NCBI GenBank assembly: GCA_029560585.1
Contig: JAKQKQ010000228.1
Location: 1 to 64,000, forward strand
Source of the DNA: Verrucomicrobiota bacterium
Lineage (GTDB): Bacteria > Verrucomicrobiota > Verrucomicrobiia > JADLBR01
DNA: 64,000 bases
Reading direction: 5' to 3'
The notes under the pieces are model-generated. The model was given only the letters and a program-made list of their open reading frames with translations, did not search any database and had not been told where the DNA came from. A program made the translations under genes and the position numbers. This document shows positions 1,930 to 26,213 of this stretch, in pieces; within the stretch, counting starts at the first letter, position 1, and each line of letters opens with the position of its first letter.

Positions 1930-3207
1930 ATGACACGCCAACGCCAGAAAAAGGACCGCAACAACACACTGGTTGAGGCCGCGAGCCACCTGGGGCGTGC
2001 AACAAATTTAGAGGAACTCATCGACTGGTTGCTGTCGGCCGTATGCCGACAATTCCGGTGCAAGGCGTGCTCGATCTCCACGGTGGACGAGGCCACGGGC
2101 GATCTCTTGCTTCGAAGTTCAGAGCCCGATTTGCGCGATGGTCCGCCCATCCGAATACCGAGGGGAAAGGGTATAGCGGGCAGGGTTTTCGCCACCGGAG
2201 AACCGGACAACACCGCAGATGCGGGGGCTGATCCCGAGCACTACACCAAGGTACAAGAGCGGGCACGATCTGGCACTCGAGCCATGATGACGGTGCCGCT
2301 GATGGACGGGAACCGGCGGCTCGGGGTGGCACAAGCCCTTAACCCAATTGGCCGAGGCCGTCGCAAGTTCCGACCGAAAGAACTTGAGATCTTCGAGGCC
2401 TTTGCCGGGCTGGCAGGGGTCACGTTGTGTCGGATCGAGCATCAGCGTCAGGAGATCCGGAATGCCGAGTTGCGTCGAGAATTGCGAATCGCCGCAGAAC
2501 TGGTCGAAGGGATTCTGCCACCGAAGGCCGGGGTCTTCGCCGGGATCGGCTACAGGGCGTTCGTGCTACAGGCCAACACCGTCGGGGGGGACTTCTTCAT
2601 CGCGGAGGAGACCGCCAGCGGAATCCGATTCTTCGCCCTGGGCGACGTCTGCGGACACGGGATCCCGGCGGCCATCGACATGGCCCGTGTGTCCACCGTG
2701 ATCCACGGGCGCTTGCCAGAATTGGATCGCATGGGGCTGGCACCCTGGACCTCCAGCCTGAACGACGTGCTGCAAGGTATGGTTCAACAGTGCCGATTCA
2801 CCGCCGCCATTTTCTTGGCAATCGGGCCGAAGACCGTCGAGCTTGTCATCGCCGGCCACCGGCCACCGCTCCTGTGGCTTCGGCCCGATGGCACTACACT
2901 GGGTCTAATTCCCCAGAATCCACCGCTCGGCGTGCGCTCAAGCACTACCTGGAGTGCCCTATCGGTTCCTCGCAAGACTTTCCACACGTGCCTTATGATG
3001 TCTGATGGGATTTTCGAGCGCCGGAATACAAGCGGCCAGTTCTTCGAGGACTTTGCCTGGCCCCTTCCCTCCAGAGACCGCACTCCGACCGTCGAAGACT
3101 TCGAAGCATTTCTGGATGTGTTTCAGGATTTCGCGGCTGGAGGCGCGCTACAAGACGATGCAACCGCCCTCTGGATATCGGTTGAGCCGTCGGACCCCGC
3201 CGGGTAA
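1930..3207 (+). CDS. GAF domain - SpoIIE/RsbU-type PP2C phosphatase
   Basis: A 425-residue cytoplasmic protein. An N-terminal GAF domain (about residues 15-165) is followed by a short coiled linker and a PPM phosphatase domain of the SpoIIE/RsbU class (about 190-420). Metal-binding signatures are visible: GGDFF near 217, GDVCGHGIPAAI near 238, and a late Asp in LQDDATALWI. Proteins of this type dephosphorylate anti-sigma-antagonist or other phosphoproteins in response to a GAF-sensed ligand. A GAGAGGG sequence precedes ATG 1930. It is followed by the FHA-cyclase gene on the same strand, which suggests a shared signalling role. Confidence 0.85.
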   Translation: MTRQRQKKDRNNTLVEAASHLGRATNLEELIDWLLSAVCRQFRCKACSISTVDEATGDLLLRSSEPDLRDGPPIRIPRGKGIAGRVFATGEPDNTADAGADPEHYTKVQERARSGTRAMMTVPLMDGNRRLGVAQALNPIGRGRRKFRPKELEIFEAFAGLAGVTLCRIEHQRQEIRNAELRRELRIAAELVEGILPPKAGVFAGIGYRAFVLQANTVGGDFFIAEETASGIRFFALGDVCGHGIPAAIDMARVSTVIHGRLPELDRMGLAPWTSSLNDVLQGMVQQCRFTAAIFLAIGPKTVELVIAGHRPPLLWLRPDGTTLGLIPQNPPLGVRSSTTWSALSVPRKTFHTCLMMSDGIFERRNTSGQFFEDFAWPLPSRDRTPTVEDFEAFLDVFQDFAAGGALQDDATALWISVEPSDPAG

Positions 3208-3293
3208 GTCCTTCACGGATTTCCCTTGTGCGCCAGTAGACCGCCAATAGTCTATGCATCATCGGCTCAACGACAGGGCGATCGACGCAGGGC

Positions 3294-4169
3294 ATGGCAA
3301 CAAGTCGCACCCAAATAGAATGGGCTTGTCTCATCACCGACGGTGGTACCCCCGCAACTATCCTAGATGAATTCAGGATAGGCCGCGATCGAACGAACGA
3401 CCTCCAAGTGGACTGTGCCGACGTTTCCCGCCACCACGCCATCATCCGCCGACATGGCCGAAACGAATACCGGATCTTCGACCAGAACAGCACCAACGGC
3501 GTCCGCGTAAACGGCGCGCTCCTCGCCCGCCCAAGACGCTTGGCGGACGGTGATCGTATCACTATCGGCAGGGCGTGCTTCCGTTTCCGCCAATCCAGCA
3601 GCGAAGATCGAAAAGGGCCATCTTCATCCGCCGCCGGATCCCAGATCACAGAAAGGCACATCGAAACCCATGCCTGCTGGTTGCTTATCGCCGATATCGA
3701 AGGCTACACGAAACTCAACCAACACCAGCCTCCCGCGAATGTCCGCCGTCTTTTCGAATCTTGGATCAGGCGAAGCGATAGTATTCTCGAAGAGCATGAT
3801 GGCGTCTTGATCAAGTTGACCGGCGATGGCTTCCTCGCCTACTGGCACGATCACCCAGATGTCCGGCCCGGCATCGCCGCCGCCCTCGAAAAGCTGCGTG
3901 AGTTCCAGAAAGAAGAAGACCCGAAATTCCGAATTGCCGTCCACCTGGGTACCGCTTCCTTCGCCGGTCGCGTCGGTGGCGATTTCATGATCATGAGCCC
4001 AGATGTGATTTTCGTCTTCCGCATGGAGATGCTCGCCAAGGCTTTGCGCGCCCCCCGCATCATCAGCGCCCCCGTCGCCCGCATCCTAAAACACCACATG
4101 CCCGTCAGATATCTTGGCACACGCTCCGTCCACGGCTTCGGTCGCAAATTCGGCTTCCACGCCTTTTGA
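3294..4169 (+). CDS. FHA domain - class III nucleotidyl cyclase homology protein
   Basis: A 291-residue soluble protein. The FHA domain is at about 15-100 (FRIGRDRTNDLQV, VSRHHAII, DQNSTNGVRVNG), with the Arg, Ser and His of phosphothreonine recognition. A class III cyclase homology domain follows (about 125-290). Both metal-binding Asp positions look present (LLIADIEGYTKL and LTGDGFLAYW). The Asn that normally lies four residues before the catalytic Arg appears to be Ile (DVIFVFRME), so activity is uncertain. It could be a cyclase, a nucleotide sensor or a scaffold docking on a phosphorylated kinase. Confidence 0.8.
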   Translation: MATSRTQIEWACLITDGGTPATILDEFRIGRDRTNDLQVDCADVSRHHAIIRRHGRNEYRIFDQNSTNGVRVNGALLARPRRLADGDRITIGRACFRFRQSSSEDRKGPSSSAAGSQITERHIETHACWLLIADIEGYTKLNQHQPPANVRRLFESWIRRSDSILEEHDGVLIKLTGDGFLAYWHDHPDVRPGIAAALEKLREFQKEEDPKFRIAVHLGTASFAGRVGGDFMIMSPDVIFVFRMEMLAKALRAPRIISAPVARILKHHMPVRYLGTRSVHGFGRKFGFHAF

Positions 4170-4531
4170 TCCGCGGAACGTGTAACTGGTCCACAGGGTG
4201 CAGAATCCTAACCCCGCAGCACAACCGCTTTGTCCATCGCCATGCTGCCCGCCTCCAATCCGACCTGCGCCCCTTCGCTAGTGCCTGTCAGTAAGCCTTG
4301 ATCTACTGGCGACGCTCGTCCTACCGACAACCCGTCGTCCGCACACGTCCCGCGCGAACAGCGCCACGGGGCCATAAACGCGCTGCAAGAGCCGCCCAAT
4401 ATCCGGCTCAATATATCCTGCTTCCCCCTGCCTTTCATTTCCGATACACGTTTCTCAAGGAGATGCTCGTTTCCGGGTGTTGGCACTGAGGTCGTGCGCA
4501 CGGCGCCCGCAGAACGGTTTCCTGTCACCGC
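4170..4531. other. 362-bp intergenic stretch with a doubtful minus-strand ORF
   Basis: No gene can be supported here. A minus-strand frame (4208-4636, 142 codons) starts with a signal-like hydrophobic run ending in AGC. Its N-terminus lies antisense to the clearly real zinc ribbon of the next gene, and its tail is low in recognisable features. No terminator or promoter is evident. Confidence 0.4.
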
Positions 4532-5734
4532 ATGCCGTTGAACGTCTGCGCAGCCTGCAATCACGCATACAACAGCGATGAGGGAGATCGCTGTCCCAAG
4601 TGCGGGCACGATGTGCGCGGGCGCGATTCCCATCACGATGGCTCTGAATTAACAACGCTCCTGATCGAGCCATGGGGTTTGGTGAAGCGGCTCTCACCAG
4701 TGTCATCATCGGCCCTTTCCAGGGTATTCAGGGGTGAGATGGGAGGGCGCGACGTGTGCGTCAAGGTGCCCCCTGCTTCACGGAGCACGGCGGGCCGCGC
4801 CGTCCAACACTCCCTCGGATACTATCGGCAAGAGTGGTATTCTGAAACACGTGCCTTCGCGTGGAGTGGCATGATTGAGGAGGATTTGCCAGCGGATGTC
4901 TGTGGACGCCTGATCGCGGCACAGGCCGCGATCCTCAAACGCGTCGGCCCACACTGGAACCACGAGCCCATTGGGCTCGGGAACGCCACGATTGATGGGT
5001 CCGCCTGTCCCGTATTGCTCATGAATGCCTATCAGGGTCAGACCTTGAACAGTTTCGCCCCCGAGAGACGACGAGAGATCTTCCCAACCCTCCTGCCCGC
5101 GCTTTGGGACGCATTGAGCCATTGCCCCCATGGCGATCTCAAGGATGACTCCATTTTCTTAGACTCCGGGGAAAGATTCTTCCGCATCCTCGATCCGGGC
5201 TCGCTGGTGAGGGACGACCGCCCGGGACCAACGCGCTCCAATAACTTCGAACTCCGCTTTGCGACCAACCTGGCACACTACCCCGTGCTTTGCCCCGAGT
5301 TCGGTCCCGGGCCACCTCGGGCTTTTTCGGGCACCCTTTACGATCTACTACTACACCGCGGTGGGGGACCGTTCTTCATGGACTTGCCCTTCGACTGCGT
5401 CGCGGAACGCACGGATTCTTCTGCCCGACCCTCGGCGAGCGACCTTCTGGCCCTAGGCCTGATATACCTGTCATATCTTGCCCCAAATGCTCTTGAACCA
5501 CTCAAAGCCGTCTTCGGCCCACATCCCATGTGGTCGTTTATGGGATTCGATGCCCCCGCGGGCTGGCCCAAGATGCGACTGCGGTTACTCTCTGCCCTGC
5601 AGGGCGGGTTGCTGGAGGATCTGCTGCCCTCCTCCCAAGCGCGACCCGGCCAACGCGAACTCTGCATTCGGCTCCTGACGCTCCGTATCGATTGCCAGGA
5701 AACACTCATGACGCTCGTGCAGCAGGCGGCATGA
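4532..5734 (+). CDS. Zinc-ribbon protein with degenerate protein-kinase-like domain
   Basis: A 400-residue protein. It opens with a four-cysteine zinc ribbon (CAACNHAYNSDEGDRCPKC). The rest resembles a protein kinase fold with altered catalytic motifs: a VCVKVP strand supplying a possible lysine, HGDLKDDSIFLD in place of HRDxKxxN, and ILDPGS in place of DFG. The Asn of the catalytic loop is a Ser and the DFG Phe is Pro. This is probably a pseudokinase that binds a partner or a substrate, though weak activity cannot be excluded. No clear ribosome binding site precedes ATG 4532. It converges on the anti-sigma gene with a 51-bp gap. Confidence 0.65.
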   Translation: MPLNVCAACNHAYNSDEGDRCPKCGHDVRGRDSHHDGSELTTLLIEPWGLVKRLSPVSSSALSRVFRGEMGGRDVCVKVPPASRSTAGRAVQHSLGYYRQEWYSETRAFAWSGMIEEDLPADVCGRLIAAQAAILKRVGPHWNHEPIGLGNATIDGSACPVLLMNAYQGQTLNSFAPERRREIFPTLLPALWDALSHCPHGDLKDDSIFLDSGERFFRILDPGSLVRDDRPGPTRSNNFELRFATNLAHYPVLCPEFGPGPPRAFSGTLYDLLLHRGGGPFFMDLPFDCVAERTDSSARPSASDLLALGLIYLSYLAPNALEPLKAVFGPHPMWSFMGFDAPAGWPKMRLRLLSALQGGLLEDLLPSSQARPGQRELCIRLLTLRIDCQETLMTLVQQAA

Positions 5735-5785: not shown

Positions 5786-6769
5786 TCAGTTGGCGAGGCC
5801 GCCCTCGATGGCCTCCCGCTTTGCGCGGACCCGCTCGTCGGCGAGGACATCGGGCGGGGATGCCAGTATCAGCATGAGTGCGTCAGCGGGCCTCCCGGCC
5901 GCCTTGATCCGCGCGACCTGTTCCAAGAGAGTATCGACGGATCGCAAGGGTGCCGGGCCATCCGAGGCATCGGTTACCACTAGAAACTCTCGCGTCGCCT
6001 TCGCGGCCGGAACACCGGACACCGGCTCGACCGTCAGCCGGTAGCGCACCCCCGGTTGGAGCGGCTTCGAGTCCAGCCCGGAAAACGGCATCGGAGATCG
6101 CGACACGATCGCTGTGGTCGAGGGCGGCGGGGCGGAACCCGGATCAGCCAATTCGATTCGAACCCGACAATCCCCGGAAGTGGGCAGCCGCCAGACAAAC
6201 CAGGGCCGCGTGAAACCCGTGGTATCGCCCGGTGCCATAAGCCCAAGCTGCTCCCCCGCATCTTGCCCCTGGGTTCTTTTTCCCACCCTGTAACCCGCCA
6301 CGTCTTCTAGTTGACCTTGGAATACGCGCCCCGACAACTTCACCGAATCTCGGCCTGTCCCATCTCCAGCACCCGCGACCATCCCCGGCTGTTGCTCCCC
6401 AGAACACCACCAGAATGCGCTGGTCGCCAAAATGAGGACCGCCGCGCCCGCCAAGGCCACCCGAGGCACCCATGTCGGAAGCGCTCCGCCGGCCCCCCTC
6501 CCACGCCGCCGCTTCCCCATCTCTCGCGACACGGTTTCTCGAACCCGATCAAGCCTTGCCACGACATGCCCAGGGATTTTGTCGCTCCGCGGCGACGGCT
6601 TCACCCGCGATGTGTACGCGCGGGATACGACGCTCGCCACCGCCCGTAGACGTTTCAACTCCTCGCCGGCATCCGAGTCACGGAGAAGCAAGAGTCGCAA
6701 GCGCAGTCGGTCCAACCAACCCGTCTCACCCAAGGCTGCCTTAGCCAGCAATTCTCCGCGATCTCTCAT
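5786..6769 (-). CDS. Membrane anti-sigma-factor-like protein
   Basis: A 327-residue single-pass protein. A basic cytoplasmic N-terminus of about 100 residues is followed by one transmembrane helix (VALAGAAVLILATSAFWW, about 104-121) and a periplasmic part of about 200 residues. The periplasmic part includes a beta-rich segment with Pro-rich linker. It begins 10 bp after an ECF sigma factor gene on the same strand and has a GGGGG motif 5 bp before its ATG. This arrangement is that of a regulatory anti-sigma partner. No zinc-binding HxxxCxxC motif is present, so it is not a canonical ZAS anti-sigma factor. Confidence 0.65.
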   Translation of the reverse strand: MRDRGELLAKAALGETGWLDRLRLRLLLLRDSDAGEELKRLRAVASVVSRAYTSRVKPSPRSDKIPGHVVARLDRVRETVSREMGKRRRGRGAGGALPTWVPRVALAGAAVLILATSAFWWCSGEQQPGMVAGAGDGTGRDSVKLSGRVFQGQLEDVAGYRVGKRTQGQDAGEQLGLMAPGDTTGFTRPWFVWRLPTSGDCRVRIELADPGSAPPPSTTAIVSRSPMPFSGLDSKPLQPGVRYRLTVEPVSGVPAAKATREFLVVTDASDGPAPLRSVDTLLEQVARIKAAGRPADALMLILASPPDVLADERVRAKREAIEGGLAN

Positions 6770-6779
6770 GTGATCCCCC

Positions 6780-7355
6780 CTATGTGCCTCCGCGCAACCG
6801 TCGAAGGTTCGGCCTAAGCACCAAGAAAGCCCTCCTGAAGCGGCTCAATACCGTGCCCAGTGGCATGCGGCGCTTGCGAGCGATCTGGCTCGTGGTCAGC
6901 CCCAGCACGAACCGGTCTTGGAACAGTTCCGGGTCCGGGGACGGCAATCGCCCGATGATGCCCAGCAACTCCTCCAAGCTGAACTCCGGACAGTCCGGTT
7001 CGGCAAACCGAACATCCGGCGAGTGCCCCTTCTCGGGCTCACGCTCTTCGGGTCGACGCATCCGATAACGGATGTAGTCCACCACACGATTCCTGGCGAT
7101 CGCCTTGGTCACATTAACCAGATCGTCAAAGGACCGAATATTATTGAAGGAATTTGTGGTCGGTCGCAGGACCTGCGGAACGACCTCATCCGCAAGGATA
7201 TCCGCGGCAATATCGTCGATATCGTGCGTCTCGGGGAACATCAGTTTTGAGCGGATTACCCCCACCGCCGCCCGCCAAAGAATCGGGTAGGCCGCTTCCC
7301 AAGCGGTTTGCTCGTTGGCGCGCAGCGCCTTCAAGCTCGGCAGCCCATCGTCCAC
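6780..7355 (-). CDS. ECF-type RNA polymerase sigma factor
   Basis: A 191-residue protein with region 2 (AWEAAYPILWRAAVGVI to RNRVVDYIRYRMRR) and a region 4 helix-turn-helix (GLTTSQIARKRRMPLGTVLS). The size and the lack of regions 1 and 3 match the ECF family. The start is GTG at 7355. An insertion of about 40 residues between the two sigma regions is acidic. It is cotranscribed with the downstream membrane protein. The divergent 7706-12718 operon starts 350 bp away, so this sigma factor may control it. No consensus ECF promoter was identified with confidence. Confidence 0.85.
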   Translation of the reverse strand: MDDGLPSLKALRANEQTAWEAAYPILWRAAVGVIRSKLMFPETHDIDDIAADILADEVVPQVLRPTTNSFNNIRSFDDLVNVTKAIARNRVVDYIRYRMRRPEEREPEKGHSPDVRFAEPDCPEFSLEELLGIIGRLPSPDPELFQDRFVLGLTTSQIARKRRMPLGTVLSRFRRAFLVLRPNLRRLRGGT

Positions 7356-7705: not shown

Positions 7706-9067
7706 ATGGATTACCGAAGTAGCTGTGGACCTCAGTCCAAAATGGCCCCACTCATCGCGGTCGCGCTCTGCTGTGTCACCTTCGCCCGTGCAGAAATCCG
7801 CCCCCTTTCCACCGAGTTCCGGCGGGAATCGGCTCTCCGAGCCACCCTTGCGATCTCGTTCGGCACGACAGAAGGTGCCGAGGTCAAAGAGGTATCGGCC
7901 AAGGGGGGCGACCGTATCCTCGATGCTACGTTCGCACCGTTTGAACCCGCCAAAGACGGTAAAAGCGCCTACCTGTTTCTTGTCGACACCAGCGACCCAA
8001 ATCGCGCCAAGACCCTGGCAAGCAACAAGAAGTGGTTGGCGGAAATCATCAAGAAAGCCGGCCCAGAGCGGCTCATCGCGCTATACGCCTTCGACAGCGA
8101 GCTCCGAGAAATCCTGCCTTTTGGTCCTCCTCCGACCGATGTTGAGAAGAAGCTGGCGCCGCTCAAAGCCGCTGGCCAAGCCACCGAGCTGTTCCGCTCG
8201 GTCATGGAGGGCGCCAGGCGCCTGTCTGAAGTCAAGGCCACGCGCAAGGCTCTAGTCGTCATCTCCGATGGGAAGGCTGAGGATCAACCCTATTACTCAA
8301 TCACCAACGCCGTGGCCGAGGTCGCGAATGCCGGGCTCGTGCTCATCGCGATCGGGATCCCCGAGTCGCCGTCGGAGAAACCGGCGCTCCAGAGCCTCCG
8401 CTCCCTGGCCGAGAACACCGGTGGAATCTTTATCGATGCCAACATTGACAGCAAGACACCCAAGGACGAGGACACCGCACGTTTCTTCCGCTTCCTAGAA
8501 AGCGGTGGAACCGCCTCCGTCAAGCTGCCGCGTTTTTCGGGAGCCACGACGGTCACCCTAACCGTGACAACCGCAGATGGCCGCACCTTCCCACTCGAGA
8601 GAACCGTCCAACCGATGCCGTTGCCAACCTGGCTCTGGCTTGTCGTCGGCGGCCTCACTTCGGTTTTCATCACATTCCTGATCCTCGTTAACCTCCGACG
8701 GCGCTCCAGCGATGGTCCGGACCGACCCACCCTCGCGACGCTTGAAGTCCTCGACGGCGACGAACCTCGCTCTTTCGCGATCACTTCACCGGCCGTGCGG
8801 ATCGGCCGCGGCAAGCGATGCGAAATCCGGTTCAGAAATGACTCCGTGTCTGAAACCCATGCGGAGATCATCTGCGACCGAGATGGCACTTTCGCCCTCA
8901 CGGACCTGGGTTCCAGCAACGGCGTCAGTGTCAACGGCGACAAGGTTGAGCATTTCAACCTGAAAAGTGGAGACACCATAAAAATGGGCGACTTGATCCT
9001 GCGCTTCACGCAGCACCCCGACGGTCCAGGCGCGAAACCAAGCGCCCAGACGGTTCGCCGCAAGTGA
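7706..9067 (+). CDS. Secreted vWA-like domain, transmembrane helix and cytoplasmic FHA domain
   Basis: A 453-residue protein. A signal peptide (LIAVALCCVTFARA) is followed by an extracytoplasmic alpha/beta domain of von Willebrand A type (about 80-240). It has LFLVDTSDPNRAKTL at the metal site position and LVVISDGKAEDQP at the next strand. The MIDAS is imperfect (DTSDP instead of DxSxS). A transmembrane helix (WLWLVVGGLTSVFITFLILV, about 310-330) leads to a C-terminal FHA domain (VRIGRGKRCEI, SETHAEI, LGSSNGVSVNG). It can therefore link an external binding event to a phosphothreonine partner inside the cell. It is the first gene of a tightly packed operon. ATG 7706 was chosen for its GGAGG and signal peptide. 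Confidence 0.8.
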   Translation: MDYRSSCGPQSKMAPLIAVALCCVTFARAEIRPLSTEFRRESALRATLAISFGTTEGAEVKEVSAKGGDRILDATFAPFEPAKDGKSAYLFLVDTSDPNRAKTLASNKKWLAEIIKKAGPERLIALYAFDSELREILPFGPPPTDVEKKLAPLKAAGQATELFRSVMEGARRLSEVKATRKALVVISDGKAEDQPYYSITNAVAEVANAGLVLIAIGIPESPSEKPALQSLRSLAENTGGIFIDANIDSKTPKDEDTARFFRFLESGGTASVKLPRFSGATTVTLTVTTADGRTFPLERTVQPMPLPTWLWLVVGGLTSVFITFLILVNLRRRSSDGPDRPTLATLEVLDGDEPRSFAITSPAVRIGRGKRCEIRFRNDSVSETHAEIICDRDGTFALTDLGSSNGVSVNGDKVEHFNLKSGDTIKMGDLILRFTQHPDGPGAKPSAQTVRRK

Positions 9068-9088
9068 CAACCATCGCCGTCCCATGCC

Positions 9089-9550
9089 ATGAAAAAGCTG
9101 GTTCGCAACGATGACGGGGAGGTCCGCGAAATCGATGTGCCCACGACATCCTACCCTTCGTCCCGTCGCCACTTCCTCGTGGGGCGCAACTCCCAATGCC
9201 ACATCCGAATCCCGAAGACTTTTGACTCGATCAGCAATCGGCACCTCATCATCGAAATCCTCGATGATCGCCACTATCGCATCGTCGATCAGGAGAGCGC
9301 CAACGGCACCGAGTTCTTCGACCGCCAGATGCGCAAATGGGTTTCTGTCACCGACCCCGTCAGAGTGCGAGGCGACACCCCCCTCCGCCTTGGCAAGAAA
9401 TTCAAGACATCCATCGACGAACTCCTTTCCAAATACCGCGCCGAAAGCCGCGGCGACGCGCGCTCCGACTCCGAATCCATCATCATCCGCGATGACGATG
9501 GAAACGTGCGGCGCCGCAGTTCCCGCAAGAAACCGCCATACACCACATGA
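9089..9550 (+). CDS. Small FHA domain protein
   Basis: A 153-residue cytoplasmic protein, most of it one FHA domain (about 25-110): FLVGRNSQCHIRIP, ISNRHLIIEI and DQESANGTEFFD. The Arg, Ser and His/Asn positions for phosphothreonine binding are present. The C-terminus is a charged, probably disordered tail rich in Arg, Asp and Ser. It starts 21 bp after the vWA-FHA gene and overlaps the next gene by 4 bp (ATGA). This points to translational coupling with the proton-channel protein, for which it may be a phosphorylation-dependent adaptor. Confidence 0.85.
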   Translation: MKKLVRNDDGEVREIDVPTTSYPSSRRHFLVGRNSQCHIRIPKTFDSISNRHLIIEILDDRHYRIVDQESANGTEFFDRQMRKWVSVTDPVRVRGDTPLRLGKKFKTSIDELLSKYRAESRGDARSDSESIIIRDDDGNVRRRSSRKKPPYTT

Positions 9551-10311
9551 CACGCAGTGATCCCAGCAGGCAGAGACCGGTGGTCGCCGTCATATGCATC
9601 GTCGCGGCCGCACTCTTTCTTCTTATCCTCAATCTCCTGCCCCTGCCCGGCTCTTTCAGCAGGGTATTCCTCGGCAACGCCGTGGACGGCACGATCCATC
9701 CCTTCTCGATCCAAAATTTCACCTGGCTCGCCTTCTTCATCGCGCTCGGCGAACTCTGGGTGAGACTGCTTTACGGCATGGACGAGGAGCGCGAGGTCCG
9801 GCGCGGCCATCTCCCCGCCGGCAACGAGATGCTCCGCCCCTCGGACCTGGGCCCCATCGTCCGCAGGGTGCGGGAGAAATCCCTCGAGGATCTCTTCCTG
9901 CCGCGTCTCGTCCTCCGCACCGCCTTCCAGTTCCAGGCGTCCCGATCGGTCGCCCAAGCCAGTGATGTCCTTAAGTCCAGCCTCGATCTGCTATCGCACG
10001 AGATCGATCTGCGCTACAACATGGTGCGCTACCTCGTCTGGCTCATCCCCACCCTCGGGTTCATTGGCACCGTCGTCGGCATCTCCGGCGCCATGGGCGT
10101 CGCCACCAAGGAAGGCGCCGAATCCCTCGACAAGGTCACCGCGGAACTCGCCGTGGCCTTCGACACCACCCTGGTCGCCCTCCTCCTATCCGGGGTCGTC
10201 GTCTTCCTCATGCACCTCATCCAAGAAAAAGAGGAAAGGGCCCTCAATTCGGCAGGGCAATACTGCCTCGATAACCTCATCAACCGCCTCTTCGAAAAGC
10301 AGGAGAACTGA
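9547..10311 (+). CDS. MotA/TolQ/ExbB-family proton channel protein
   Basis: A 254-residue membrane protein. There are two N-terminal transmembrane segments (about 12-34 and 55-75), then a cytoplasmic helical region with the family's conserved cytoplasmic face. Two further helices form the channel (VWLIPTLGFIGTVVGISGAM and AFDTTLVALLLSGVVVFLMH). The Pro-Thr-Leu-Gly-Phe-Ile-Gly-Thr-Val-Gly pattern and the following FDTTL are typical of TolQ/ExbB/MotA subunits, which conduct H+ or Na+ together with a TolR/ExbD/MotB partner. A likely partner is encoded at 11870. There are no tol, exb or flagellar genes nearby, so this is not a standard Tol-Pal, TonB or motor locus. Confidence 0.85.
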   Translation: MTRSDPSRQRPVVAVICIVAAALFLLILNLLPLPGSFSRVFLGNAVDGTIHPFSIQNFTWLAFFIALGELWVRLLYGMDEEREVRRGHLPAGNEMLRPSDLGPIVRRVREKSLEDLFLPRLVLRTAFQFQASRSVAQASDVLKSSLDLLSHEIDLRYNMVRYLVWLIPTLGFIGTVVGISGAMGVATKEGAESLDKVTAELAVAFDTTLVALLLSGVVVFLMHLIQEKEERALNSAGQYCLDNLINRLFEKQEN

Positions 10312-10314
10312 GCC

Positions 10315-10962
10315 ATGTCACCCATCAAACACCGCGACGACGACGATACGGAACCTTCGCTGCCCACACGCATCATCCGCCCAGGCCCCGAAGACCCCTC
10401 GATGCACCGCCCCGGGGCCCAAGATACCGATGACGATGATGAGACCGGCACGGTGCCGCTCTCTGAAGACTCCGCCGAGGCCGAGACGAAAACTCACAAG
10501 AAACCGAAAGTGGTCGGCAGGCAATCGGATTCGGAATCTTTCGGTTCATCCGGTGGTCCCACCATACTCGTGGGTCCCAATATCCCTAAGCAGCACTTTG
10601 AGCTTCCCACTGGCTGCCTGTTGATCGTGCGCGGGAAAGGTCGCGGGAAGATCCTCCCGATACCCAGGGAAACGAGCACCGTAGGCCGCGGTGAGGATCA
10701 GCGAATCCGTATCGACTTTGGCGACAACAGCATCAGCGCTCACCACGCCACGGTCAGCTATGATCCGCCGGGCCACAAGTTCTGGATCGCGAACGCCAGC
10801 GGAAAAATCACAACGCGTGTCAATGGCGAATCCGCGTTGACCCAGCGTGAACTCAAGTCGTTCGATGAAATTCAAATAGGCAATACTTATCTCAAGTTCT
10901 TCCCCTTCTGCGGAGAGAACTTCGACTGGGAGCGGGAGATCGGCAAAGAAAAGGCCCCCTGA
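10315..10962 (+). CDS. FHA domain protein with long acidic N-terminus
   Basis: A 215-residue protein. The first 85 residues are charged and low in complexity, with Asp runs and several Thr that could be phosphorylated. An FHA domain follows at about 100-205 (TSTVGRGEDQRIRIDFG, SISAHHATVSY, ITTRVNGESAL). The FHA phosphothreonine-contacting Arg and Ser are visible. The gene starts 3 bp after the proton-channel gene, so it is very likely cotranslated in the same complex. A role as phospho-reader for the kinases encoded downstream is inferred from family and context. Confidence 0.85.
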   Translation: MSPIKHRDDDDTEPSLPTRIIRPGPEDPSMHRPGAQDTDDDDETGTVPLSEDSAEAETKTHKKPKVVGRQSDSESFGSSGGPTILVGPNIPKQHFELPTGCLLIVRGKGRGKILPIPRETSTVGRGEDQRIRIDFGDNSISAHHATVSYDPPGHKFWIANASGKITTRVNGESALTQRELKSFDEIQIGNTYLKFFPFCGENFDWEREIGKEKAP

Positions 10963-10976
10963 CCACCACCAGCGCG

Positions 10977-11873
10977 ATGGTGTCTGCCCGGCTCACGCTA
11001 TTGCCCCCTGAGATGGACCCCGGAGAGAAAGCGGTGCCCGCCACGAAGCCCACCTTCGGCCAAGGGTCGGGCGCGGGCTTGGAGGTCGAGCGTGACTTCG
11101 CCTCGCGGTCGGTCATTGGCGAGCGGCAGGAGCAGGAAGACTATTGCGCGTTCTGCCCGGACCCGACGGGCACGACGGCGTCCAGTCTCCTCATGGTCCT
11201 CGCCGATGGCATGGGTGGGACACAGGCAGGCGCGGAGGCCAGCCGCATCGCTGTGACCTCCTTCATCAAGGAATTCAACCGGGCTGACGGCTCGATCCGC
11301 GACCGTCTGCTCGTTGCCATCCACGCCGCCAACGGGGCCATCGAGGAGCGTGTCGCGTCGGACCCCGAGCGCTTCGAGGGCATGGGCACGACGCTCGTGG
11401 GTGCGTCTGCCTCCCCAGCGGGCATCGAATGGGTGAGCGTCGGCGATTCGCCGCTCTTTCACTGGTCCCGCGGGAAAAAGGCCCTCCGGCGGATCAACGT
11501 GGACCACTCCGCCAACGCATCCGAAGAGGGCGGCGTCGGCGACTCCAGGCGCAAGAAGAAGCGGAGTTCGAGGCTCCGCTCCGCCCTGGTCGGCGGCGAC
11601 ATCCGCCTGATCGATGTCTCTGACAATCCCCTGCCCTTCGCGGATGGAGACATCCTCCTCGCCGCGAGCGATGGGATTCTCACCATGTCCGTCTACAAGA
11701 TTGGCGACAAGATCGAGGTCAACCGCAACGAGCCCGCCAGCCGCATCGCCGCAGCCCTCGTGACCGCCGTCCGTGCCCACCGCTACGAGCACCAGGACAA
11801 TGTGACGGTGGCCGCCATCCGCCTCGACGCCATACGGGGCGCCGCTCCGCCCACCGATCGGGAGTCACCATGA
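10977..11873 (+). CDS. PP2C-family Ser/Thr protein phosphatase
   Basis: A 298-residue cytoplasmic phosphatase with the PPM motifs in order: QEQEDYCAF, VLADGMGGTQAG, GMGTTLVGA, VSVGDSPLF, LLAASDGI and HQDNVTVAAI. The metal-coordinating Asp residues are all present, so it should be active and oppose the local kinases. ATG 10977 has no obvious ribosome binding site. ATG 11013 is an alternative start. It overlaps the next gene by 4 bp (ATGA). A basic insertion (RRKKKRSSRLR) lies in the second half, where PP2C flap subdomains often vary. Confidence 0.9.
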   Translation: MVSARLTLLPPEMDPGEKAVPATKPTFGQGSGAGLEVERDFASRSVIGERQEQEDYCAFCPDPTGTTASSLLMVLADGMGGTQAGAEASRIAVTSFIKEFNRADGSIRDRLLVAIHAANGAIEERVASDPERFEGMGTTLVGASASPAGIEWVSVGDSPLFHWSRGKKALRRINVDHSANASEEGGVGDSRRKKKRSSRLRSALVGGDIRLIDVSDNPLPFADGDILLAASDGILTMSVYKIGDKIEVNRNEPASRIAAALVTAVRAHRYEHQDNVTVAAIRLDAIRGAAPPTDRESP

Positions 11874-12718
11874 GACGCATCCAGCGCGGTGTCCCCATCT
11901 TCGGCCTCTCCCTGATCGACCTCTTCGCCTGCGCCACCGGCGCCTACATCGTCATCGCCTTCGTCCTCTGGCCCTACTACCTCAAGAGCGGCCAGCTCAA
12001 GGAATCCCTCACCCAAGCCACACAGCAGACCGCCGCACTCCGTGCGGCCGCACAGGCCGCACGGGCCGAAGCCGCGCGCCAGGCCAGCCGAGCCGCCCAG
12101 TTCGAGGGCGAAAACCGCCGCCTCATCGCCGATAACCAGGCCCTCAACCAGCAACTCGACGAGGCCCGCCAAATCGCCTTCCTCGGTATCACCACTAAGG
12201 CAAAACGCCTGATCCTCCTCGTCGACATGTCCGGTTCCATTTCGGAGAACGGCTATACCCCCATCATGCAGCGCGTCCTCAACCAGATGATCGATATCGT
12301 CGACGAGGACTACTGGATACAGATGATCGGCTTCCGCGCTCCCAGCCAAAGGAATGTGAGCCTCTACTCCTGGTTGCCCGAGGGCCGTCTCGCTGCGATG
12401 ACCGGTGCCATGAAAACCCAGGCCAATGCATGGATCGCCGGCCTCGGCGCGCAATTCGGCGGAGGCACACCCACCGGCTTCACACTCAACAAGGCACTCG
12501 ACTACTCCGATGCCCAAGCCATTTTCCTCTTCACCGACGGCGAACCCACCGACGCCCCGAAGGACGCCATTGTCAACCAGGTCACAGCCCGCAACGCCGG
12601 CCGAGCGGAAATCCACTGCGTCGCCATCGGCAACTACTCCACCCAGTTCCAGCTCCAGCAGTTCCTCATCCCCCTATCCGCCCAAAACCGCGGAGAGTTT
12701 ATCGGCGTCACGCGGTAG
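11870..12718 (+). CDS. TolR/MotB-like membrane anchor fused to a von Willebrand A domain
   Basis: A 282-residue protein. One N-terminal membrane helix (FGLSLIDLFACATGAYIVIA, residues 11-30) carries an Asp at position 17, near the start of the helix, as in the ion-binding helix of TolR, ExbD and MotB. An Ala/Gln/Arg-rich coiled coil follows (about 40-100) and then a vWA domain (about 105-280) with a perfect MIDAS, VDMSGSISENG, and the later FLFTDGEPTD. The partner channel subunit is encoded at 9547. The fusion puts a metal-dependent adhesion domain where MotB or ZorB has a peptidoglycan-binding OmpA domain. It is the last gene of the operon. Confidence 0.8.
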   Translation: MRRIQRGVPIFGLSLIDLFACATGAYIVIAFVLWPYYLKSGQLKESLTQATQQTAALRAAAQAARAEAARQASRAAQFEGENRRLIADNQALNQQLDEARQIAFLGITTKAKRLILLVDMSGSISENGYTPIMQRVLNQMIDIVDEDYWIQMIGFRAPSQRNVSLYSWLPEGRLAAMTGAMKTQANAWIAGLGAQFGGGTPTGFTLNKALDYSDAQAIFLFTDGEPTDAPKDAIVNQVTARNAGRAEIHCVAIGNYSTQFQLQQFLIPLSAQNRGEFIGVTR

Positions 12719-13405: not shown

Positions 13406-14080
13406 ATGCGAGGACTCATGTATATTCTCGGCATGGGTTTCGCACCTGGCACGAAGATCGATCCGAAGGAGTTGGAGAGGCGGCGGTTGAAGGCGGCCCG
13501 GCTGTTCGAGCGCGGGCTCGGCCCCTCCGAGATAGCGCGCAGGCTGAAGGTGTCCTGCCAGTCGGCGTGCCGCTGGTGGGCTAAGCTGCGCGCCGGTGGC
13601 AAGTCCGCCATTGGGGCACAGCCGTGGGGCAGGCGGTCGCTCTTGAGCGACGCGCAGCTGCGGGACCTGGAGCGGTCGCTGGTGGAGGGTCCCGAGAAAT
13701 CGGGCTACTCGACCCCGCTCTGGACAGCGGCGCGCGTGGCCGATCTGATCCGGCGCAAGACGGGGGTGCGCTATCACACCGACCATATCTACCGGCTGCT
13801 GGCCAGGCTGGGCTGGAGCTGCCAGCGTCCCAGCGGCCGCGCCCTGGAGCGCGACGAGGCCAAGGTGCGCCGCTGGAAGCGCCGCGAGTGGCCGGCGCTA
13901 AAAAAAGAGGCCATCGCCGAGGGGCGCGCGATCGTCTTCGTCGACGAGAGCGGCCTGAGCCAGCGCCCCCACCAGGTGCACACCTGGAGCCCGCGCGGGC
14001 AGACCCCGGTGCTCCAGCACGCGTTCAACTGGAAGAGCTTCTCGGTCATCGCGGGCATCACGGTGTCTGGCGACAATTAA
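13406..14080 (+). pseudogene. IS630-family transposase, 3' truncated
   Basis: The 224 codons encode the N-terminal part of an IS630 transposase. There is a winged helix-turn-helix (ARRLKVSCQSACRWWAKLRA), a second helical domain (YSTPLWTAARVADLIRRKTG, HTDHIYRLLARLGW) and the start of the DDE domain (IVFVDESGLSQRP and HAFNWKSFSVIAGIT). Family members are about 340 residues. The second catalytic Asp and the Glu are missing, because the frame stops in the motif CGACAATTAAAAC. The motif CGACAATTA recurs 24 bp later and may mark the break or an element end. Confidence 0.8.
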
Positions 14081-14332: not shown

Positions 14333-17300
14333 TCAACGGAAGTGCCCCAACTTCTGTTCCGCGAAGCGCAGCCCTTCCATGAGATCCGCCTGTTGCGTAC
14401 GGGCGAACTCGGCGCGCAGCACGACCACAGCCTCTCGAAGTTCTCTCTCAGCACCTTGCCGGTCGCCAAGTGTCTCAAGGACTTCAGAATATAACACCCG
14501 AGCAAAACCTAACTGCCCGACCACCGCCCAGTTCCTCTCCGCCTTCTTGTCATTCACCAACTTATCAAACATCTTGATCCCCTGATCGCATAGCCGCACA
14601 GCAGCACGCGATCCCCCAACACTCTGAGACAAACAAGCCGCGTTGATGTAGGTAGTTGCTAAGATGTGCGCATACTCACTCCGGCCCTCCTTATTCACCA
14701 AACTCTCGAAAAGCCTAATTGCCCTGTGGTATAGGCACACTGCGCTTCCACTCAAATGTACCTTTCGAAGCGCGTCTGCCTTCTCCGCGCACGTTCTGGC
14801 AAAGTGCTCGCCCAGTCTGCACCGCTCCTCCCGATCTTTTAACTTACTGCAAAGTTCGATTACCCGATCGCAAAGCGTCCCTACGCCGCGGTGCTCGCCC
14901 AGATCATTTAGCTCATCACTCTTGTTGATGCACGCGGTTGTCAAATAGTGTGTCAGCTCTCTCCGACCCTCCCGCGTCACAAGCTGCTCGTAAATTTCGA
15001 TAGCGCGGTCAAAAAGTGCGCAGGCGGTTCTCCCGTCATTCAAAGAACGAAGCGCCCGAGCTTTGTTCAGCAGGCTCAGGGCCAATCCATCGGCCAGTTC
15101 ACGCCGACCCTCCTGTTCCACCAGTCTCTCGTAGATGTGGATCGCTCGATCACACATAGCAGCCGCCCCGCGCTTGTCGCCCGAATCTGTAAGCGAGGCC
15201 CCTTTGTTCATGTAAGCCTTGGCCAAACCATCGGCAAGTTCACGCCGGCCCTCTTGATCGACCAGCCTTTCGTAAATATCAATTGCTCGGTCAAACAGAG
15301 TGCCTGCTTCGCGATGCTCGCCCAAACCGGCCAGCGCAATGCTCTTGTTCATATAGGCCGAGGCCAATTCATCATCGAACTCATGTCGGTTCTCCTTGTT
15401 TATCAGTCGCTCATAGATCTCGACGGCCCGCCCACAGACCTCCACCGCGCCGCGTTTGTCGGCCAAGGCTGAGAGCGCGTTGGCTTTGTTCATGTAGGTG
15501 TCAGCCAGATGGTTTGCCAGATCACCTCGGCCCGCCCGATTCACTAGGCGCTCGTACATGTCAATGGCCAGATCGTAGAGCCCCACTGCACCCGGGGCAT
15601 CACCCAGATCCGAAACAGCGGCACCCTTGTTTGCGTAGGCCGCTGCCAGCTGATCGAGCACTTTTACCCCGTTTAAACCTCTAATCATTTGATTGAAAGT
15701 GTCGATTGCCCGATCATACAGTTCAACCGCCTCGCGTTTGTCGCCTAAGTCACGGACCATGTTGGCCTTGTTCACGTAGGTCCTGGCCAGATCATCAACC
15801 AGTTCTCGCCGGTTTTCTCGATTCACCAGTCGATCGAGATCGTTGATGGCCCGGTTGTACAGCGCCAAGGCGCCGGACGAATCGTCGGCCGTCTGATGCA
15901 GATAGGCCGCCTCAGCGCAAAGGATTGCCAGATCATGCTCCAGTTCCTTCCGTCCGGCCTGAACCAGCCGCTCGTAAATCTGCCGGGCCTCATCGTACAC
16001 CGCGATCTCGGTCACCAGCTGGCCCCGGCGTGTTGCTCCGTGTCTATCGGCGATTGCCAGTGCTTCGGCCGAATCCCCGCCTTCAGCGCGCAACGCCTTT
16101 TGCAACCATTCTCGGGGATCCCTCCAATCACCTCCCGAACGACCCCGGCGTTCTTTGATGCCAACTTGGTCAACAGGCTGTTGGTCGACGCGTCCGAGCG
16201 GCCGCCCGTACTCGCGCCCAACGGTATTACGATAGACGATCTTCAGTTCTTCGACTGCATCGGCCAGGGTTGCCCAGCGTTCGGCAGCCTTTTCGCGAAA
16301 ACAGCGCGCAAGCACCCTTGAAACGCCGTCGGGCATTCGCGGGATGCCTGCAGGCCCATTCTCGTCGGCGAAATGTTGCTGCAGAACGGAGTCCGCAACC
16401 TGGCCAGTGAGCCATGTCACCTCCCCGGTGAACATCTCGAGCACCGAAACGCCCCAACTCCAGATGTCGGTGTGCCTAGTCAGCCGATCACCGCGTGCCT
16501 GTTCCGGCGAGCAATACGCCGGCGTGCAACCGCCACTGCTAACGAGGACGTCTTGACCCGGTTTGGGAACATGCCGTTCCCCGGCGGCCGCCCTGGCCCG
16601 TGCCAAGCCGTAATCGGTCACTTGCACACGAAACCCAGATCCCGGCGAGCCGCCGTTTTCGGAGACGAGAACGTTGCCGGGTTTGACGTCCTGGTGCACA
16701 ACGCCCAACTCGTGGACACAGTGCAGACCCCAGGCAAACTGGATCGCCATGTCCAGCATCCGCTCGAGCGCCTTCGCCGCATCACCGCCATAGAGTTTGC
16801 GGCTCTCGATCCAGTGCTCCAGGCTCCCGCCCTCGACGTAGTCGGCGAAGATCACGACCTCGGTGCCCAGCGTGCGGAAGAAACGGCACGGCACCATGTT
16901 CGGGTGCTCCGGCAGGTCGATCCACACCTGCAACTCGGACAGAAAATTCTGCCGTTCGGGGCCGCTCAATCCGATGGCGCGCTTCACGGCAAAGCGCGAT
17001 CCCCCAGACTGGTTCCGCACCAGATAGACACGTCCCATCCCTCCTTGGCCCAGTAACCGTTCGACAACGAAATCACCCAAGATCGCCTGCCCGTCCGCCC
17101 AGTCGCTTCCCGCGGCGAATTCTTCAGTCTCAGGCGGCACACCCTGGTTCTTTCGGGACGCTACATAGAACTTTGCGTCGCACTGGGGACACTCCACATT
17201 TCGGTCCCAATATTTCGGACCGAGGGAGTAGGTGCTCGAACACTTGGGGCATGTGACATCGATGGTCCCCTCAGTCTCCGTCGCGGGGGGCGGAGCCTCA

Positions 17301-18661
17301 GGTTGCGAGGGCTGTGGCGGAGCGGGTTTCGGTGACGTGGCAGCCTTCGGGGGCCGCACCGGAGCCCTGGTTTCAGGGGTCAGGCCTCCCACCGCTGCGG
17401 CTTTCTGCCGCAAGGCCGTTTCGAACCGTTCGAGGCATCGGCCGCAGATCGTCGCCCCTCCCTTAGAGGGCATGGCGACCAACGCGGACGGCAGTTCCCT
17501 GCTACAAAACGAACAGCGTACCCGATCCGCCACCTTCGCGCCGCTGGCAAGCGCCGCTAGGTTCAAGGGAAGCCGCCTCAGGGCGGTCACACACCCATTG
17601 CAGATACAGTGGCTTGGACCCTTAACCAGGAACTGAACCTGAACCGCCGCTTTTCCGCAGAAGGCGCAAACCAACGTCTGGGTGGCCGCGGCCGGCTGTG
17701 GTTTGCGGACCGCTGAGGGACTTGCAACCTTGATTCGGCCTTCCGCCAGGGAGGCCGCGATTTCCGCCACGACCCTGATGTCCTCCACGCCGGCGGGAAG
17801 GGGCAATCGGTTCCACCTTTCACCATCGAGGCGCCAGAGCCCATGCGAGCCAGAGGCAGCGATGATCCTCCCCTCGCCATCCTCGCAAAATGCACAGACC
17901 AGTCCCGCGTCGGGCAGGGCAAGATCCCGCGTGATGGACAGGGTTCGCGTGTCGAACTGAACAATTCCGCCTCCCCATGTGCCGAACCACACCCGTCCAT
18001 GGGAATCGGCGAAAGCGGCCTGCACGGTCTTCTGGGGCAGCCCCGTCTCCACTGTTAGCTCGATATACGACAAGTCGGGCTGCACGACCATCGTGCGCCC
18101 GATTGCCCCAAGATAGATCCGGCCGCCCGAATCGGAAGCCACGGATTTCACGTTCAGCGGCGCAAACGCTTTCGGGATTCCCGGTAAGAAGGCCCCGTCC
18201 TGAAGCACCGACACGCCCCGGTCCGTCGCGATCCAGAGCCGCCCCAGCCCGTCCTCAGCGAACCCATTGACGTCATCAAAGCAGAGCCCGTCCTGCTGAT
18301 GCAGGCGCTTGACCCGACCATCCTCCCAACATCCGATGCCATCCCCCCATGTGCCGAACCAAACGCGCCCCTTCCGGTCTTCGACGAGACTCGACACGGG
18401 CTTCGCGACGGTCGAGATCATCACCCCACCGGCGTTAAAGCGGCAGAGGGCCCCCTGACCCCCTATCCAAAGTTGCCCCCTGCTGTCGGTGAACACCGCC
18501 CTGACCACTCGGATGACTGGCCTCACGGCCTCCCAGGGAATCCATTGGTCCCGGCGGCTCAGATAGCACTCGCCCCCCTCCCTGACAACGAGGATGTCCC
18601 TGGCGCCCGAATCCGCAGCAGCACCGGCAGATTTGGCGGGCGAGGGGCGAGCACGATTCAT
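14333..18661 (-). CDS. Giant Ser/Thr kinase: beta-propeller, zinc fingers, kinase, TPR array
   Basis: A 1442-residue protein with no membrane segment. Residues 25-300 form a two-component-regulator-type propeller with repeats such as GRVWFGTWGDGIG and GRLWIATDRGVSVL. Residues 330-410 hold two treble-clef or ClpX-like zinc fingers (CAFC...CNGC, CSFC...CGRC). A zinc ribbon lies at 471-498 (CPKCSSTYSL, CPQCDAKFYV). The kinase domain is at 530-810 (LGQGGMGRVYLV, Lys560, VVHQDVKPGN, DYG at 683). The C-terminal 570 residues are about a dozen TPR-like repeats. The catalytic loop has HQD rather than HRD, as does the kinase at 30906, so the two look like paralogues. It is divergent from the FHA-kinase gene. 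ATG 18661 is preceded by GGAG. Confidence 0.85.
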   Translation of the reverse strand: MNRARPSPAKSAGAAADSGARDILVVREGGECYLSRRDQWIPWEAVRPVIRVVRAVFTDSRGQLWIGGQGALCRFNAGGVMISTVAKPVSSLVEDRKGRVWFGTWGDGIGCWEDGRVKRLHQQDGLCFDDVNGFAEDGLGRLWIATDRGVSVLQDGAFLPGIPKAFAPLNVKSVASDSGGRIYLGAIGRTMVVQPDLSYIELTVETGLPQKTVQAAFADSHGRVWFGTWGGGIVQFDTRTLSITRDLALPDAGLVCAFCEDGEGRIIAASGSHGLWRLDGERWNRLPLPAGVEDIRVVAEIAASLAEGRIKVASPSAVRKPQPAAATQTLVCAFCGKAAVQVQFLVKGPSHCICNGCVTALRRLPLNLAALASGAKVADRVRCSFCSRELPSALVAMPSKGGATICGRCLERFETALRQKAAAVGGLTPETRAPVRPPKAATSPKPAPPQPSQPEAPPPATETEGTIDVTCPKCSSTYSLGPKYWDRNVECPQCDAKFYVASRKNQGVPPETEEFAAGSDWADGQAILGDFVVERLLGQGGMGRVYLVRNQSGGSRFAVKRAIGLSGPERQNFLSELQVWIDLPEHPNMVPCRFFRTLGTEVVIFADYVEGGSLEHWIESRKLYGGDAAKALERMLDMAIQFAWGLHCVHELGVVHQDVKPGNVLVSENGGSPGSGFRVQVTDYGLARARAAAGERHVPKPGQDVLVSSGGCTPAYCSPEQARGDRLTRHTDIWSWGVSVLEMFTGEVTWLTGQVADSVLQQHFADENGPAGIPRMPDGVSRVLARCFREKAAERWATLADAVEELKIVYRNTVGREYGRPLGRVDQQPVDQVGIKERRGRSGGDWRDPREWLQKALRAEGGDSAEALAIADRHGATRRGQLVTEIAVYDEARQIYERLVQAGRKELEHDLAILCAEAAYLHQTADDSSGALALYNRAINDLDRLVNRENRRELVDDLARTYVNKANMVRDLGDKREAVELYDRAIDTFNQMIRGLNGVKVLDQLAAAYANKGAAVSDLGDAPGAVGLYDLAIDMYERLVNRAGRGDLANHLADTYMNKANALSALADKRGAVEVCGRAVEIYERLINKENRHEFDDELASAYMNKSIALAGLGEHREAGTLFDRAIDIYERLVDQEGRRELADGLAKAYMNKGASLTDSGDKRGAAAMCDRAIHIYERLVEQEGRRELADGLALSLLNKARALRSLNDGRTACALFDRAIEIYEQLVTREGRRELTHYLTTACINKSDELNDLGEHRGVGTLCDRVIELCSKLKDREERCRLGEHFARTCAEKADALRKVHLSGSAVCLYHRAIRLFESLVNKEGRSEYAHILATTYINAACLSQSVGGSRAAVRLCDQGIKMFDKLVNDKKAERNWAVVGQLGFARVLYSEVLETLGDRQGAERELREAVVVLRAEFARTQQADLMEGLRFAEQKLGHFR
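14464..15994 (-). repeat. Tandem TPR-coding repeats, about 135-150 bp each
   Basis: The C-terminal half of the large kinase gene is built of tandem units encoding variants of AVELYDRAIDIYERLVNREG followed by RRELADxLAxxYMNKAxALxxLGD. Units near the centre (about 15,050-15,500) are similar at nucleotide level as well as protein level, which suggests recent duplication. Such arrays usually form a superhelical surface for protein partners. Confidence 0.75.
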
Positions 18662-18890
18662 CGCCTTGATCTCCGATCCGCCCGAGCCTGGGCGACCCTA
18701 TGTCGCATACAGCATCGCGGCGCCTTCACCCTCGACCCCACATTGTCGTACTGCATGGGAACACTCCTGCCATGCCGCCTCCTTTAAGACTGATCGGCGC
18801 TCCGCCTCCAATCAAGCCCAATCCCATGGCGCATGACATTTTACGCTCCCACCAGCCGAATCTTCCTGTCAAAATTGGCTAGGAGTGGAT
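18662..18890. promoter_or_regulatory. Divergent promoter region between two kinase genes
   Basis: 229 bp separate the minus-strand TPR-kinase from the plus-strand FHA-kinase, so both promoters should be here. AGGAG at 18881-18885 sits 5 bp before ATG 18891 and decides that start over the GTG at 18885, which lies inside the motif. No confident -35/-10 elements were recognised. Confidence 0.5.
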
Positions 18891-20264: not shown

Positions 20265-21076
20265 CTGCCGGGACCCAAGATCCAGACCCGCCGCAGGAAA
20301 TCCGCAATCCGAGTTTTCGGCGCAGCGGAGTCGCGCCGCACGGCCCCACACGACTCCATTGGGCAACAGCCACCGATCCCGGGAGGGTCCGGACCGCCAA
20401 CGAGGATGCCTGCCGCGCCATCCCGGAATCGGGTCTCTTCATATTGGCCGACGGCATGGGCGGCAGCGCTGCCGGAGCACTGGCCGCCGATATCGTCGTC
20501 CAACTCCTTCCCGACCTGCTCGCACGTCGCCTCAAGTCAAACGCCGTCGAAACGTCCGATGATGCTTGCTCGGCCATTGAGGCTTCGCTTTCCGAGCTTA
20601 GCGAAATGGTCCTCGAGAAGGCCGAGACCACCCCCGCCCTTCTGGGCATGGGATCGACCGTCGTGACGGCATGGTTGCGCGAACAGGCCGACGTCATCGC
20701 GCACATGGGCGACAGCCGAGCCTATCTGCTCCAGAAGGGCAGACTCAATCGGTTGACCCAAGACCACAATCTCGCTCAGATTCTCGACCCCGCAGGACAG
20801 CCCCCCGCTTTCGGAGGCGAACAGCTCCTTCGGTATATCGGAATGCGGAGCGAGCCCTTGCCCGAGGCCCGCATTATCTCTCTGGATCACGGCGATCGTC
20901 TGCTCCTCTGCTCCGACGGACTCACCAATATGCTCGACGACCAGACCCTCGCCCGAATCCTCTCATCCGCATCCGCGCCTCGTGAGACCTGCGATGAACT
21001 CGTCACGGCCGCCAACCGGGCCGGAGGCCGCGACAATATCACCGTGATGGTCCTCGACGTGATAAGCCCGCCCTGA
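20261..21076 (+). CDS. PP2C-family Ser/Thr protein phosphatase, partner of the FHA-kinase
   Basis: A 271-residue cytoplasmic PPM phosphatase. Its motifs are RTANEDACRAI, ILADGMGGSAAG, GMGSTVVTAW, AHMGDSRAYLL, LLLCSDGLTNM and GRDNITVMVLD. All metal-site Asp residues are present. The start is TTG 20261, embedded in the stop of the kinase gene (TTGA), and no ATG lies nearby. Family knowledge predicts reversal of phosphorylation by the preceding kinase. It converges on the kinase gene at 21116. Confidence 0.9.
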   Translation: MTAGTQDPDPPQEIRNPSFRRSGVAPHGPTRLHWATATDPGRVRTANEDACRAIPESGLFILADGMGGSAAGALAADIVVQLLPDLLARRLKSNAVETSDDACSAIEASLSELSEMVLEKAETTPALLGMGSTVVTAWLREQADVIAHMGDSRAYLLQKGRLNRLTQDHNLAQILDPAGQPPAFGGEQLLRYIGMRSEPLPEARIISLDHGDRLLLCSDGLTNMLDDQTLARILSSASAPRETCDELVTAANRAGGRDNITVMVLDVISPP

Positions 21077-22744: not shown

Positions 22745-22758
22745 GATCTGCTCCAGGA

Positions 22759-25734: not shown

Positions 25735-25809
25735 ATCTCAATCCTCGGCGTTTCCTCGGCACCCGCCTCACCACGACATCTTCAAGCAAAAGAACCAAAG
25801 CATATGTGT

Positions 25810-26205: not shown

Positions 26206-26213
26206 ACCACCCC

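Follow-up and report, generated by a model that had tools for sequence, protein, structure and literature searches.

Ion-driven 5:2 motors of the MotA/TolQ/ExbB-MotB/TolR/ExbD type, among them ZorAB and GldLM, share a channel family, pore threonines and a helix aspartate. In a variant published in 2025 in Mol Biol Evol (PMC12204202, section 8), a TolQ-like channel without TolR or ExbD is partnered by an Asp-bearing transpore helix (TPH) that is joined to a vWA head, frequently in a heterologous pair; in the AlphaFold 3 models of this TPH-vWA family given there, such an Asp lies within the pore. Here a locus containing a channel gene and a partner gene of this kind is described: an operon at 7706-12718 (+) and a second gene set at 21116-30858 (-) within the window, that is, the whole 64,000-nucleotide stretch of contig JAKQKQ010000228.1 (positions 1 to 64,000) from a Verrucomicrobiota bacterium. 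Because its motor core appears in PMC12204202, this core is not new, and an earlier, sequence-only reading of the window, which knew of no described system with this composition, put the matter too strongly. What is new is that the channel clade travels with Ser/Thr kinases, two PP2C phosphatases, FHA readers and protease-transmembrane-FHA proteins. The section of PMC12204202 on these motors names no FHA, PP2C, kinase or protease partner, whereas the clade of the window channel, a separate sister clade, usually has them.

Several other systems share some of these parts. The window system resembles the 5:2 motors in its channel family, pore threonines and helix Asp, yet has no OmpA/peptidoglycan-binding or ExbD periplasmic domain and adds a cytoplasmic phospho-module. 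The type VI secretion system (T6SS) threonine phosphorylation pathway PpkA-PppA-Fha1, in which a membrane Thr kinase, a PP2C and an FHA protein switch an envelope machine (PMC12607579), has the same kinase/PP2C/FHA logic and may serve as the best working analogy, but the machine in the window is a TolQ-type channel; a T6SS itself was rejected, TssC (PF05943) being absent from 12/12 system-bearing genomes with a positive E. coli control. Myxococcus Agl-Glt gliding links a TolQR-like motor to the membrane FHA protein GltG (PMC3169522), but uses the ExbD/TolR proteins AglQ/AglS, and the Glt envelope proteins (TPR, OmpA-like) were not seen beside the window operon. The KKP module likewise combines a PP2C with kinases, one of them bearing an FHA domain (PMC11341870), but is a three-gene prophage module lacking both channel and vWA. 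The vWA, PP2C and kinase activities of the TerY-P triad are all present in the window, in other architectures; membership in the Ter system was rejected, with no TerD/TerC-type Pfam match among the roughly 30 window proteins scanned. Zorya was rejected as well, the helix protein having a vWA domain, no OmpA domain and no match to a ZorB model; nor did PADLOC match ZorC/ZorD/ZorE-type effectors among the window proteins scanned. A linked phospho-control set accompanying such a motor was not found in the literature searched, which comprised open-licence papers.

The channel clade and the six-gene operon

In a maximum-likelihood tree of channels, the window channel falls within a single 13-member clade (support 99/99). 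When FHA, PP2C, kinase and helix profiles were tabulated over 39 loci, an FHA gene together with a PP2C and/or a kinase and/or a helix protein was found beside the channel in 11/13 clade members, as against 0/27 other TolQ-like loci sampled; one clade locus that is cut by its contig end (L127) has two FHA proteins. Kinases adjoin the operon in seven loci (L097, L099, L116, L128, L130, L131 and L132), and the ectodomains of system kinases include PEGA, PAN, PDZ or beta-helix parts. The nearest sister clade (support 94/82) consists for the most part of loci that encode two helix proteins, vWA-bearing in at least some cases, and that have no phospho genes (L050-L058, L134); it fits the TPH-vWA motors of PMC12204202. 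Hence it is the window's clade, and not the other TolQ-like channels sampled, that is repeatedly accompanied by kinases, two PP2Cs and FHA proteins, a linkage that gives strong support to phospho-control of the putative motor, as the sequence-only reading had proposed, while falling short of a demonstration.

The operon itself consists of six ORFs on the forward strand (termed here g1 to g6), spaced by 21, -4, 3, 14 and -4 bp, so that the reported six genes with gaps of at most 21 bp, two 4-bp overlaps and the domains assigned to them are confirmed by open reading frame (ORF) coordinates and Pfam. The first gene, g1 (7706-9067), encodes a signal-peptide-like start, a vWA domain (4.8e-9), a transmembrane (TM) helix near residues 304-322 and an FHA domain (4.7e-18), with homologues at the equivalent position in L098, L099 and L129; its metal ion-dependent adhesion site (MIDAS) is degenerate, reading DTSDP without the last Ser, as it does in L127, L128 and L129 (DTSNP in L097). 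It is followed by g2 (9089-9550), a small FHA protein (9e-9) with the GR...SxxH...NG signature, which has counterparts upstream of the TolQ-like gene in L047, L098, L099, L116 and L127-L131. The channel gene, g3 (9547-10311), matches the MotA_ExbB family (PF01618; 8.6e-12, above the curated cut-off); of the 11 MotA/TolQ/ExbB family proteins in its own genome, it fits the family model least well. Next come g4 (10315-10962), an FHA protein (7.9e-10) with a disordered N-terminal tail containing a TRIIR-type threonine motif and with a conserved C-terminal FxPFCGxxFxW, and g5 (10977-11873), a PP2C phosphatase (PP2C_2 1.9e-10; Stp1 model NF033484 1.9e-27) whose motifs are intact (ED54, DGMGG77, SDG231 and DN274).

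The last gene, g6 (11870-12718), encodes a single N-terminal TM helix (residues 15-33) with Asp17 at its start, a helical stretch, and a vWA domain (VWA_3 1e-7) with an intact MIDAS (DMSGS and TDGEPTD); the earlier description of this protein is thus borne out by TM prediction and by the sequence. Pfam finds in it neither ExbD/TolR (PF02472) nor OmpA, and none of the helix proteins tested matches the ExbD/TolR family, so that a TolQ-like gene adjoins a TPH-vWA gene with no ExbD/TolR. Judged from domain order and charge, both vWA domains are probably periplasmic and all FHA and PP2C domains cytoplasmic, by the usual topology. There is one helix protein in the window, L097, L099 and L129, and two in L130, L131 and L132, the L130 and L131 proteins being heterologous pairs. 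The heads of these proteins vary: most are vWA domains, and those of L047, L116, L132 and L133 are another, Pfam-unmatched domain in which no vWA is detectable. The tethering through vWA adhesion that the sequence-only reading proposed is not supported.

Conserved residues and distribution

In an alignment of 16 helix-protein homologues drawn from both channel clades, Ser14, Asp17 and Gly24 are invariant and Arg3, Arg6 and Phe11 nearly so; full-length homologues of g6 include those of L129 (36% identity) and L131 (34%). The best solved relatives of g3 are TolQ, PomA and ExbB chains, to whose TolQ pore threonines Thr175 and Thr208 align; both residues, which lie in the last two TM helices, are invariant in 13/13 clade channels. 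The sequence-only reading had counted a lack of Asp17 conservation among what would overturn it, and the invariance of this residue, together with the pore threonines, instead supports its picture of a MotA/TolQ/ExbB channel with a TolR-like transpore helix in which vWA replaces OmpA or ExbD.

The disordered tails of g4 proteins contain repeated T-R-x-x motifs. The form TRxxR occurs 12 times, against a shuffle mean of 0.1, a pattern that was picked after the sequences had been viewed, that occurs in strict form in 5/10 tails and that is counted over near-copies in L098 and L099. These motifs could be phospho-threonine docking sites, which is a lead rather than proof, and the selectivity at pThr+3 is itself disputed (PMC4037201).

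Because g6 as a query is swamped by vWA domains (a phylum-wide search returned vWA matches only, and a contig scan returned two weak vWA matches, both in genomes without the channel), the channel was used as the query instead. Within the window's class, four further genomes carry the system, and a draw from the class yielded 2/384 carriers. A draw from the phylum brought out one genome (G230), with a channel match of 33% over full length, whose locus (L047) comprises a helix protein, FHA, TolQ, metzincin-TM-FHA, FHA and PP2C; 4/195 genomes of its family carry the system, three of them, with loci L097, L098 and L099, beyond G230 itself. Members of the clade are also carried by 7/289 genomes of the alphaproteobacterial class of a Rhodobacter-titled metagenome-assembled genome, as against 0/329 for the same query, at E<=1e-40, in a phylum-wide draw around that genome. 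Since the genome listings of the two carrier groups do not overlap, these belong to different classes. A further channel (49% identity) is on a complete, conjugative plasmid of Rhizobium leguminosarum (L116; NZ_CP125637.1, pRlBT01d), where the motor cluster also includes a 1610-aa protein (L116:14003-18835) that has no Pfam or PADLOC match and is a candidate output component.

The exact order g1-g2-g3-g4-g5-g6 recurs in three loci: L098 (which ends at a contig edge within g6), L099, and the alphaproteobacterial L129, where a second PP2C and a trypsin-TM-FHA protein follow. In L097 the same genes form two divergent arms, accompanied by a kinase, a second PP2C and trypsin-TM-FHA. The L129 locus is closer to the window (channel 56% identical; g6 36% over full length) than is any member of the same class, which suggests horizontal transfer. 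Conservation elsewhere, on which the sequence-only reading had also staked its proposal, is thus found across phyla, and this recurrence of order and composition indicates that the operon is more than a chance arrangement.

The second gene set and surroundings of the operon

The six-gene unit stands as it had been described, but is incomplete, inasmuch as a kinase/phosphatase/protease half located 9-18 kb downstream was missed. This half is at 21116-30858 on the reverse strand. When the L128 system kinase is compared with the whole of the window's own genome, the top three of 14 matches all lie there, the best match elsewhere being 8.8e-28. In order of transcription, it begins with a Ser/Thr kinase (29365-30858; Pkinase 1e-28; second-best match, 5.4e-49) that has a C-terminal TM helix at residues 477-495, a DFG motif and HRDIAPDN. 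There follow a second PP2C (27742-29358; the 'PP2Cb' of other loci), with a TM helix and a periplasmic part, whose best match is the L129 PP2Cb (39% identity); a trypsin-like protease with a TM helix and an FHA domain (26214-27893; Trypsin_2 4.4e-23, FHA 6.1e-15), which matches the protease-TM-FHA proteins of L097, L099, L129 and L131; and a small FHA protein (25810-26205; FHA profile 3.6e-11), whose start is placed at an ATG inside ORF 25810-26367. Two further Ser/Thr kinases with TM helices and ectodomains like that of the L097 kinase complete the set: one with PEGA (22759-25734; third-best match, 2.0e-29) and one that is the best match (21116-22744; 4.1e-70) and is 43% identical to the L128 and L097 system kinases. 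Catalytic residues are present in the PP2Cs and kinases, the one departure being the HRDIAPDN of the 29365-30858 kinase.

More generally, the window forms an island dense in phospho-signalling genes. Just upstream of the operon, at 1930-5734, are a GAF-SpoIIE phosphatase, an FHA-guanylate cyclase and a degenerate kinase-like protein (HGDLKDDS, DPG). Between the halves are an IS630-like transposase remnant (13406-14080), which is probably broken, as nothing beyond the start of its DDE domain is left; a large regulator-propeller/zinc-finger/kinase/TPR protein (14333-18661, -); and an FHA-kinase that overlaps a PP2C by 4 bp (18885-21076, +). The kinases of the latter two loci are of types unlike that of the system. 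Beyond the second half lie a kinase fused to many WD40 repeats, which form a eukaryote-like propeller array (30906-34703, +), a bacterial alpha-2-macroglobulin of 2032 aa (47969-54067, +), and an MMPL exporter and a methyltransferase fused in a single ORF (59189-63046, +).

Proposed mechanism, alternatives and implications

The locus probably encodes a 5:2 motor that spans the envelope, is powered by the proton motive force and is reversibly controlled by threonine phosphorylation. Gene content, conservation, the catalytic and pore residues and the origin of the channel in a single clade are established; from these we infer stoichiometry, rotation, gating and its direction, signal and output along the following lines. 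The g3 channel would form a membrane pentamer with two g6 helices in its pore, where Asp17 would take up ions against a ring of conserved threonines, the ion flow turning or otherwise moving the g6 stalk and its periplasmic vWA head. The membrane kinases (21116-22744, 22759-25734 and 29365-30858) would use their ectodomains to sense a signal in the envelope and would phosphorylate cytoplasmic threonines, probably in the disordered g4 tail; the FHA domains, which g1, g2, g4 and the protease protein all contain, would then bind these phospho-threonines, thereby assembling or gating the motor, whose periplasmic partners would be the g1 vWA and the trypsin-like protease; and the two PP2Cs would reset the system. 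At a guess, the system might respond to envelope stress or contact by acting mechanically or proteolytically on the envelope or its surface.

Several observations weigh against this interpretation. L133 has a channel and a helix protein with no FHA or kinase gene nearby, so that phospho-control is not obligatory, and no kinase was found beside the L047 operon. In the window, about 8.4 kb separates the two halves, and the genes in this interval look unrelated. Single-sequence AlphaFold models of g6 and g3 lack confident structure (predicted local distance difference test scores of 48.6 and 46.9), being too poor for a fold search; against PDB sequences, g6 itself matched nothing useful and the helix profile found no TolR/ExbD chain. 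Gating of the stator by FHA domains, moreover, is inferred from gene linkage only.

Other explanations may be set against the same evidence. The system might be an anti-phage defence of Zorya logic, with the motor as a sensor of envelope perturbation and the kinase/FHA/protease arm as effector. Its spread is as patchy as defence would lead one to expect (the 2/384, 4/195 and 7/289 counts given above), the nearest full match of the window operon is in another class, and on the conjugative Rhizobium plasmid a complete Gabija pair (L116:96-2760; GajA 1.8e-238, GajB 8.3e-157) lies about 2 kb from the motor system. Its kinases resemble PADLOC defence kinases and its protease-FHA protein matches PADLOC protease models, but these matches reflect widespread folds; Zorya models give only weak, generic ZorA matches (1.4e-5) and none to ZorB/C/D/E, defence genes are absent from most other sampled flanks, and no relatives of g6 or g3, hence no phage-borne copy, were found in the viral contigs searched. 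Defence is considered unlikely.

A sensory role, with ion flow or membrane potential setting, through channel, helix and vWA, a kinase/phosphatase output that controls something else, is regarded as improbable. The several ectodomain receptors among the kinases and the many FHA outputs fit it, and a sigma-factor-like gene (with a weak region 4 match) and a TM protein, which may be its anti-sigma partner, adjoin the operon divergently (5786-7355, -); yet the channel's well-studied relatives all do mechanical work, and the periplasmic protease and vWA proteins of the conserved set look like outputs. Finally, a plain TPH-vWA motor might have landed in a phospho-signalling island with no functional coupling, given that the window holds other, apparently unrelated kinases, FHA proteins and PP2Cs (14333-18661, 18885-21076 and 30906-34703). 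Such a coincidence seems very improbable, as tree and gene order show this channel clade accompanied by the same gene set in each of two phyla-level groups, frequently with the order preserved.

A bolder form of the phospho-controlled motor proposal, whose chances are put slightly below even, is that a T6SS-style kinase/PP2C/FHA circuit has been grafted onto a TolQ-class motor, yielding a rotary envelope motor with an FHA-scaffolded, reversible threonine-phosphorylation switch that drives periplasmic vWA and protease outputs; if so, a TolQ-class motor with such a switch would have spread between distant bacteria as a module of about 12 genes. Ion-driven 5:2 motors form a small group that has received much study, and for none of them, to our knowledge, is a switch by Ser/Thr phosphorylation on record. 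With a conserved module in which such a motor is joined to kinases, phosphatases and phospho-readers of its own, the question of such switching becomes directly testable. One member is carried by R. leguminosarum BT01, a strain that can be cultured, on a complete plasmid. At the same time, the recently proposed TPH-vWA motors, to which no function is attached, gain a concrete regulatory context.

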